Source of the DNA: Candidatus Rokuibacteriota bacterium
GTDB lineage: Bacteria; Methylomirabilota; Methylomirabilia; Rokubacteriales; CSP1-6
Direction: 5' to 3'
NCBI GenBank assembly: GCA_003220685.1
Contig: QHTE01000044.1
Coordinates: forward strand, 62,001 to 126,000
DNA length: 64,000 bases
Shown here: in pieces, positions 13,241 to 55,771 of the stretch
Layout: every line of letters begins with the position of its first letter
Numbering within the stretch: position 1 is the first letter of the stretch
Notes under the pieces: model-generated
What the model saw: only the letters and a program-made list of their open reading frames with translations
Told to the model about the DNA's origin: nothing
The model's database searches: none
Made by a program: the position numbers and the translations under genes

Positions 13241-13337
13241 ACGACCGGAGGCGTCATGGACCGTCACGGTACCATAGCCCTGTCGCGAGGGTGACGCGCG
13301 CTCGAGAAACCGCACTCGAATCACCAGGAGGACGCCC

Positions 13338-13865
13338 ATGACGAGGATCAGCGAAGTCGAACATCCCGGACTGGCGCTCCGCGCCTTCTATCGGATCGGG
13401 CGGGCGATCTACGGCCGGGTGCCGACGCCGGAGCGGCTCATGGCCCACCGCGTGCCGCTCATGATGGGGCTCGGCGGCCTCTACGCCGCGCTCGAATGGT
13501 TCGGCCGAATCGAGTCGACCCTGCGTGCGCTCCTCAACGTGCAGGTCGCGGCGCTGTACGGCAGCGCCTATTGAATGGACATCCGCCGCGCCGTCGGCGC
13601 GAGGGCGGGGATCCCGACCGAGAAGCTCGACGACCTGCCGCGCTATCGAGAGAGCGATCGGTTCACGGCGCGAGAGCAAGCCGCGCTCGAATATGCCGAG
13701 CGCATCACGCGCGCCGACCTGGACGTGACCGACGCGTGCATGGCTCGGGTCCGGGAACACTTCTCGGAAGCCGAGGTCGTCGAGCTGACCTTCATCGTGG
13801 GCTTTCAGACCTTCGCCAGCAAGTTCGCCAAGGCTTTCAACCTCGCCCCGCAGGGGTACGCGTAG
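13338..13865 (+). CDS. carboxymuconolactone decarboxylase/AhpD-like protein, probable selenoprotein (in-frame TGA at 13572)
   Basis: Two adjacent frames (78 and 96 codons) are in phase and separated only by TGA 13572-13574. Joined, they give 175 residues, normal for CMD/AhpD-like disulfide reductases. The TGA sits where the family has the second Cys of its CxxC redox motif (LYGSAY-TGA-MDIRRA), and the first Cys is Ser. Downstream sequence is intact family sequence (YRESDRFTAREQAALEYAERIT). A six-pair hairpin follows at 13587-13601. AGGAGG precedes ATG 13338. Reading TGA as selenocysteine explains all of this; a nonsense mutation in a recent pseudogene is the alternative. No sel genes lie in the window. 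Confidence 0.72.
13587..13601 (+). promoter_or_regulatory. candidate bacterial SECIS hairpin
   Basis: CGCGCC-GTC-GGCGCG, a perfect six-pair stem whose three-base loop starts with G. The loop lies 19-21 nt after the in-frame TGA, within the range known for bacterial SECIS elements. Such stems are common by chance in GC-rich DNA. Confidence 0.45.
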
Positions 13866-54091: not shown

Positions 54092-55771
54092 ATGGACGAC
54101 TGGACGGGTGGTCGGGCGGTCGTAGAGCTACTGAAGACCGAGGGGGTCCGGCACATTTTTGGAATCGTCGGCTCGACGTTTCTGGACGTCCTCGACCGGC
54201 TCTACGACGACTCGAGCGTCGAGTACATCAACGTGCGCCACGAGCAGGCCGCGGCCTTCATGGCCGACGGCCTGGCGCGCGTCACCGATCGTCCCGGCGT
54301 CTGCCTGGTCACGAGCGGTCCCGGCGCCACGAATCTCATCACCGGCGTGGCCGCGGCCCATGTCGCCCATTCGCCGGTCGTGGTCCTCGTCGGCGGCATC
54401 GCGCTCGACCACTATCAGAAGGACGCCTTCCAGGAGCTCGACCTGGTCGGCATGTTCCGGCCGGTGACGAAACAGGCGATCCAGATCACCAAGGCGGAGC
54501 GCATTCCCGAGCTCCTGCGGGGCGCGCTCCGCGCGGCCATGAGCGGCCGCCCGGGCCCGGTGTTCGTCGAGATCCCGCGCGACGTGCTGAGCGCCAAGCT
54601 GCCACCGCCGGCGGCGCTGGCGCCGGAAGCCTACCGCGTCACCCACGCGCAACCGCCCCACGCGAACGCCGTTCGTGAGGCCGCGCGACGACTGCGGCAG
54701 GCCGAGCGGCCGCTCTTGATCGTCGGCGGCGGGGCGAGCCGCGCCGGCGCCAACGAGCTGGTCGTTGAGCTGAGCGATCGCTACGGGATCCCGATGATCA
54801 CCGCGTACGGTCGCAACGACGCCGTGCCCAACGCGCATCCGTTGTACCTGGGCCCGCTCGGGCGCGCCGGCGCGCCCGAGGCGGCCGCCGCGTGCCGTCG
54901 AGCGGACACGATCGTGGCCGTCGGCTCACGCCTGGCGCAGTTCACGAGCCAGTTCGACGACCGCTACATCCGCCCGGGCGCGGCGCTCATCCAGATCGAC
55001 ATCGAGGCGCGCGACATCGGACGCTACTACCCCGTGGCCGTCGGCATTCACGCCGACGCGCGCGAAACGTGTCAAGCCCTGCTGAGTGCCCTGGCCCAGG
55101 ACGGCGGGCCTGCGCGTAATCAGGCCTGGCTGAAGGAAGCCGAAACGTTGCGTGCCGAGCGTCAGGCGCGGCTCGCGGCCGAGGAGCAGCTCGTGGCCAG
55201 GCCGATGAAGCCGCAGCGCGTGTACGCGGAGCTCCGCCGCGTGCTCCCGTCCGAGACGATCGTGGCGCTGGACGCGGGAGCCTCGCCCGCCTACGGATAC
55301 GACCGCCTCAGCTTCGCGCGGCCGCGGACGTTCCTGACGCCGCTCGATCTCGGCAGCCTGGGCTTCGCGTTCCCCGTCGCGCTGGGCGCGAAGCTCGGTC
55401 GCCCCGACGCGCCGGTGGTCGCGATCCACGGGGACGGCGGCTATCTGATGAACGCGCAGGAGCTCGAAACCGCGGTCCGCCACGGCATCGGCGTTCTGAC
55501 GATCGTCATGAACAACAACTGCTGGGGATCGGAGAAGGCGTACCAGAAGCACTTCTACGGCGGCCGCTACATCGGCTGCGACATCGGCAATCCCCGCTAC
55601 GATCAGCTCGCCCGCCTCTTCGGCGCCGGCGGTTACTACGTCGAGCACCCCGATCAGGTCGGCGACACCGTCAAGAAAGCGCTGGCCGAGAACGCCGCGG
55701 CGGTCATCGAGATCCCGATCGATCCCGACGAGTTCCCCACCCCGGTCGCCGCCATCCGCCGCCCCGAGTAG
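54092..55771 (+). CDS. ThDP-dependent enzyme, acetolactate synthase-like
   Basis: 559 aa with the three ThDP domains. The catalytic Glu is in YINVRHEQAAAFMADG. The middle domain has RPLLIVGGGASRAG. The cofactor motif runs from GDGGYLMNAQELE to NNNCWG. Relatives include large-subunit acetolactate synthase, sulfoacetaldehyde acetyltransferase and aldehyde-forming decarboxylases. No small regulatory subunit is adjacent, so a catabolic role is as likely as branched-chain synthesis. GGGAGG precedes ATG 54092. Confidence 0.88.
   Translation: MDDWTGGRAVVELLKTEGVRHIFGIVGSTFLDVLDRLYDDSSVEYINVRHEQAAAFMADGLARVTDRPGVCLVTSGPGATNLITGVAAAHVAHSPVVVLVGGIALDHYQKDAFQELDLVGMFRPVTKQAIQITKAERIPELLRGALRAAMSGRPGPVFVEIPRDVLSAKLPPPAALAPEAYRVTHAQPPHANAVREAARRLRQAERPLLIVGGGASRAGANELVVELSDRYGIPMITAYGRNDAVPNAHPLYLGPLGRAGAPEAAAACRRADTIVAVGSRLAQFTSQFDDRYIRPGAALIQIDIEARDIGRYYPVAVGIHADARETCQALLSALAQDGGPARNQAWLKEAETLRAERQARLAAEEQLVARPMKPQRVYAELRRVLPSETIVALDAGASPAYGYDRLSFARPRTFLTPLDLGSLGFAFPVALGAKLGRPDAPVVAIHGDGGYLMNAQELETAVRHGIGVLTIVMNNNCWGSEKAYQKHFYGGRYIGCDIGNPRYDQLARLFGAGGYYVEHPDQVGDTVKKALAENAAAVIEIPIDPDEFPTPVAAIRRPE

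Follow-up and report, generated by a model that had tools for sequence, protein, structure and literature searches.

A carboxymuconolactone decarboxylase-family gene of a Rokubacteria-like soil bacterium very probably encodes a selenoprotein that lacks the partner cysteine of its redox motif

We analysed a stretch of 64,000 nucleotides, referred to here as the window, from a Rokubacteria-like MAG from soil (6.09 Mb, 137 contigs, 88% complete), whose nearest named relatives are MAGs of Candidatus Rokuibacteriota that are 91% identical in the protein studied. Positions 13338-13865 of the window very probably hold a gene of the carboxymuconolactone-decarboxylase (CMD) family with selenocysteine (Sec) at codon 79, and its product would be a Sec-containing redox enzyme. 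CMD-like and AhpD-like selenoproteins are already known; new here is a clade without the partner cysteine of the motif and with an invariant cysteine, Cys134.

When the TGA was read as U, the segment gave a single frame of 175 residues that ends at TAG and has its only U at residue 79, in line with the preliminary description of two in-phase frames split only by this TGA. The strong ribosome site and the intact family sequence on both flanks claimed there were also recovered: AGGAGG stands 6 nt 5' of the ATG, and the match to the Pfam CMD model PF02627 (31.1 bits; the cut-off of 23 is exceeded, which places the protein in the family) spans residues 50-121 and so crosses the TGA. The AlphaFold model (mean pLDDT 78.5) has a predicted CMD/AhpD-like fold; in a structure match, 7xw1 of P. 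aeruginosa superposed on it at 1.4 A rmsd. None of the NCBIfam models reached its cut-off for the three clade members that were scored. The best match, NF053654 (GroundWater_YciW, 'YciW-related (seleno)protein'), covers residues 34-172; at 103.5 bits the window protein stays below the cut-off of 310 and is not a member, and the two other clade members scored 120 and 105. The features are as follows.

13326..13331, plus strand: Shine-Dalgarno sequence AGGAGG, from the sequence, with a similar G-rich site 5' of most orthologues.
13338..13865, plus strand: CMD-family selenoprotein gene (very probable), 175 codons and the TAG stop, from its translation, PF02627, 21 full-length orthologues and purifying selection both 5' and 3' of the TGA.
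13563..13565, plus strand: codon of Ser76, at the partner-Cys place of CxxC/CxxU relatives (Ser, Ala, Thr or Val in the clade), from orthologue comparison.
13572..13574, plus strand: TGA, very probably read as selenocysteine 79, from its presence in 21/21 full-length orthologues and the Sec machinery in the genome.
13587..13601, plus strand: putative bSECIS hairpin with stem 13587-13592/13596-13601 and loop GUC at 13593-13595, from the conserved stem, with invariant wobble bases only in codons 85 and 87.
13737..13739, plus strand: codon of Cys134, invariant in the clade and a candidate relocated resolving cysteine, from orthologue comparison.

A search across the order returned a sharp group of orthologues, 57-91% identical to the window gene and with a single TGA at codon 79. 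Counting the window gene, TGA occupies this codon in all 21 full-length orthologues and a sense codon in none, the outcome of the homologue alignment called for in the preliminary description; the other sense codons in sister genomes that would have counted against its reading did not turn up, and its other refuting conditions covered by the analysis failed as well. When 95 genomes of the phylum were searched with a profile, 19 full-length members scored 289 bits or above and the next match 135 bits; the search added a member from another order (G060) and fragments at contig ends in two genomes (G016 and G058). About 85,000 species genomes were scanned with peptide patterns that omit the Sec column, and no member with a sense codon was found. 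In four comparisons dN/dS was 0.10-0.34 before the TGA and 0.19-0.30 after it, values that indicate purifying selection on both sides. Judged by this comparison, a TGA common to 21 full-length orthologues from many assemblies is far beyond chance, and codon 79 must be read through. Close orthologues with Rokubacteria-like neighbours were also seen on contigs labelled Actinobacteria (L109, VAYX01000028.1) and Deltaproteobacteria (L116, JACPFL010000096.1); these contigs are probably mis-binned, although transfer is possible.

The genome contains SelA, SelB, SelD and tRNA-Sec, the set that serves as the criterion for selenoproteins in bacteria; all four had been proposed as the genes to look for. 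The tRNA-Sec (anticodon TCA) scored 69.8 bits against a cut-off of 47, selA 588 bits (cut-off 268) and selB 364 bits (cut-off 242). The selA and selB genes adjoin each other on the contig that carries the tRNA-Sec, and selD lies elsewhere in the MAG, over its cut-off and with an in-frame TGA of its own. In the order, selB was over its cut-off in 54 of 60 genomes. Across the whole genome, 26 matches to the CMD family were obtained, and four of these contain an in-frame TGA; with these four genes and selD, it probably has a large selenoproteome. In a passage of PMC13188914 that cites Deng et al. 2026, very large selenoproteomes are reported in this uncultured lineage. At 54571-54652 on the minus strand of the window, ARAGORN also called a tRNA-Ala whose AGC anticodon would be unusual for bacteria; this call is probably spurious, because Rfam gave no tRNA there at the gathering threshold.

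In a tree with CMD sequences from across the order, the majority of which have a TGA too, the orthologues group as a single clade (support 100/100). The motif of the window protein is Ser76-Ala-Tyr-U79, and position 76 is Ser in 12 of the 18 aligned members, Ala in three, Thr in two and Val in one. The SxxU form with Ser for the first Cys, called unusual in the preliminary description, was thus understated: the clade never has Cys at this place and has an invariant Cys134 in addition (23/23, from the 18 aligned members, three further full-length members and two fragments), the only other Cys that is kept. Among 47 other CMD sequences, position 76 is Cys in 46 and position 134 is Cys in none (Leu, Ala or Thr). 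However, 41 of 175 columns are invariant in the clade, so that one invariant Cys is not very improbable, and the swap of Cys76 for Cys134 is one event on the tree, so that the co-occurrence carries no statistical weight by itself.

The CMD-like and AhpD-like selenoproteins of the literature (PF02627, COG2128, NF041047, NF041238; PMC9312934, PMC13188914) share with the clade the fold family, Sec at the second place of CxxC and a bSECIS inside the gene. All those listed are CxxU, whereas the 18 aligned clade members have Ser, Ala, Thr or Val first and Cys134 besides. P. aeruginosa PA0269 (2O4D/2IJC/7XW1) and M. tuberculosis AhpD (PMC3141380) have the same fold, the same nucleophile place and Tyr50. 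The relay residues of the AhpD-like peroxidase PA0269 are Glu36, Cys48, Tyr50, Cys51 and His55 (PMC3141380), which correspond in a HMMER alignment to positions 64, 76, 78, 79 and 83 of the window protein. In the clade these are Ala (17/18), non-Cys, Tyr (18/18), Sec, and Arg or Gln. The CxxC with proton-relay Glu and His by which AhpD is recognised is therefore absent: Glu, Cys48 and His are lost, Cys51 has become Sec, and of the relay only the Tyr (Tyr78) and the nucleophile place remain. The CPFU paralogues likewise lack the relay Glu and His, which fits the idea that a selenol does not need them. Like the window protein, TTHA0727 of Thermus thermophilus (PMC3141380) is a CMD-family protein with Ser for the first Cys, but it is not a selenoprotein as described, and its authors inferred no peroxidase activity. 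Peroxiredoxin T/SxxU and MerT C/SxxU selenoproteins, whose folds are unrelated to CMD, also show a Sec that has no Cys three positions ahead of it. In the literature searched, SxxU was found in unrelated families only; the search covered part of the literature, and an earlier listing of the gene among predicted selenoproteins is possible. A parallel with the Bmp8 debrominase was dropped, since the 6OHJ chain is a C82A mutant and the Ala at this position is engineered.

Within the window the selenoprotein gene stands alone, with a divergent aldo/keto reductase gene on one side and a convergent gene without a Pfam match on the other; no operon partner was found within the window, and the neighbours are common to its genus only. 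In other genera its surroundings resemble stress-repair clusters. In one genome (G036), a Met-rich lipoprotein-like gene, the selenoprotein gene, msrP (486 bits), msrQ (171 bits; both over their cut-offs) and a sensor kinase gene follow each other on one strand. The msrPQ genes lie within about 6 kb of the selenoprotein gene in G047, G029 and G030, and six loci (L092, L094, L095, L096, L101 and L116) have a homologous sensor kinase nearby. The role of the selenoprotein is probably oxidative-stress defence or repair, because msrPQ, the sensor kinase and other selenoprotein genes lie near it in related genera, a context that belongs to other genera and is absent from the window. In P. aeruginosa, AhpD-like proteins (RclX) have been connected with defence against hypochlorous acid (PMC7950407).

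Further genes with in-frame TGAs were observed at these loci. In L094, L095, L096 and L101, an exported thioredoxin-like gene with its TGA at FWTYG-U-INC lies 0.8-2.8 kb downstream of the start of the CMD gene and adjoins the sensor kinase gene, and msrPQ is also near in the first three; the four proteins are probable extra selenoproteins of the same cluster. In G047, a peroxiredoxin-like gene that carries an in-frame TGA stops about 50 nt before the selenoprotein gene, on its upstream side; at locus L094 the peroxiredoxin-like gene, its in-frame TGA at FLRA-U, lies from about 0.6 to 0.05 kb upstream, directly before the CMD gene. In L092 (9176-10246), MsrQ is fused with a homologous thioredoxin-like domain that lacks the whole active-site segment, EFW-NVIPQ standing in place of EFWTYGUINCxNVIPQ, which is either a real deletion or an assembly fault.

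From the sequence comparisons, we infer with high confidence that Sec is inserted at codon 79 and that Sec79 is the nucleophile. SelB and Sec-tRNA(UCA) would perform the insertion, and Sec79, at the second-Cys place of the AhpD/CMD CxxC, would be the catalytic residue. A selenol is ionised at neutral pH. Sec79 would already be a selenolate under these conditions, which would explain the missing thiol-activating Glu and His of AhpD. It would reduce peroxide or a similar oxidant and become a selenenic acid, which would most likely be resolved as a selenenylsulfide with Cys134 of the same or a neighbouring subunit, because the partner Cys of the motif is gone; a thiol carrier would then reduce the selenenylsulfide. 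By its fold and nucleophile alone, the window protein may be a peroxidase. That Cys134 is the relocated resolving residue of a selenolate peroxidase or reductase has, in our estimate, a little short of an even chance. A Sec79-Cys134 couple is described for no CMD/AhpD protein in the literature searched. Nearly as likely is an enzyme with Sec as its one redox residue, in which Sec79 is resolved by an outside thiol, either one of low molecular weight or that of a thioredoxin-like partner, and Cys134 has a structural role. Loss of the motif's partner Cys throughout the clade and the thioredoxin-like UxxC genes close by in four loci both agree with such an enzyme, and among so many invariant columns an invariant Cys is not decisive; set against it, Cys134 is the sole other Cys retained, and all other CMD paralogues examined have Leu, Ala or Thr at this position. 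A history in which Cys gave way to Sec, the whole AhpD relay was then lost and the resolving thiol moved to a distant helix at Cys134, within an MsrPQ cluster for oxidative repair that holds several selenoprotein genes in some genera, is put forward as a tentative proposal that we hold somewhat doubtful.

The hairpin described earlier, with six pairs and a G-first loop 19-21 nt past the TGA, was found exactly there: the stem CGCGCC/GGCGCG begins 12 nt 3' of the TGA, and GUC forms the loop. With a 3-nt loop, 6 bp and an 18-nt spacer, it lies within all published bSECIS constraints (loop of 3-9 nt, stem of 4-16 bp, G in loop positions 1-2, spacing of 16-37 nt, MFE <= -7.5; PMC13188914), the comparison that had been suggested for it. 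The bare window hairpin has -9.5 kcal/mol, and that of orthologue L116, which has lost one stem pair, -5.3. In the single window sequence the hairpin is weak evidence: the window is GC-rich, a qualifying stem of at least six pairs follows 25% of all its 1346 TGAs and the exact geometry 0.2% of them, and the 44-nt fold is not significant for this single sequence (z = -1.47), so that the single-sequence test is not used as evidence. It becomes convincing because it is conserved in 20 orthologues, where 99.2% of the cells of the stem CRCGCC/GGCGYG are paired. Five of the six pairs never vary, and the sixth is A-U in ten, G-C in seven, G-U in two and broken in one. The G-C/A-U switch alters both amino acids (Arg84/His84 and Ala88/Val88), so that the RNA pair is kept at the cost of a protein change. 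Across 21 sequences only two of 54 fourfold-degenerate sites are invariant, both in the stem (codons 85 and 87), and the flanking codons 83 and 91 rank with the most variable. When wobble conservation was rank-tested over the whole stretch of codons 80-92, the result fell short of significance (P=0.32), because variation is free in the codons beyond the stem and only in-stem sites are invariant. As expected for bSECIS elements, an Rfam scan of the window at the gathering threshold gave no match.

The comparison also excludes the other ways of accounting for the TGA. Two coupled proteins, with a stop at the TGA and re-initiation directly 3' of it, would suit the ATG that stands there in the window gene and in most orthologues, but this start codon is replaced by ATC in L006 and ACG in L016, which rules out a general stop and restart; with a CMD match that spans the TGA and a hairpin kept with a compensatory change, we consider this highly improbable. 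Even less probable is that the gene is a pseudogene or that misassembly made the TGA out of a Cys codon: a single base separates TGC from TGA, but the same TGA recurs in the full-length orthologues from many assemblies and samples, and selection is purifying 3' of it. Reassignment of TGA to another amino acid, equally improbable, would fit the many in-frame TGAs among CMD paralogues of the order, but in this genome TGA still terminates genes such as selA and AKR; histidine kinase and amidohydrolase genes end with it too, as does, in several genomes, the orthologous gene itself. Read with the standard code, both selA and selB are open frames.

Ordinary annotation would split such a gene or label it a pseudogene. 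In CMD/AhpD selenoproteins of the known type, the CxxC pair is intact and Sec stands in for one of its Cys residues, whereas the clade described here is Sec-only, with no Cys orthologue found, and has dropped both the pair and the thiol-activating residues. For this uncultured lineage, the gene clusters would connect several selenoproteins with the repair of methionine sulfoxide. If the proposed mechanism is true, Sec makes the activation relay dispensable and lets the resolving thiol move, which is a testable claim.
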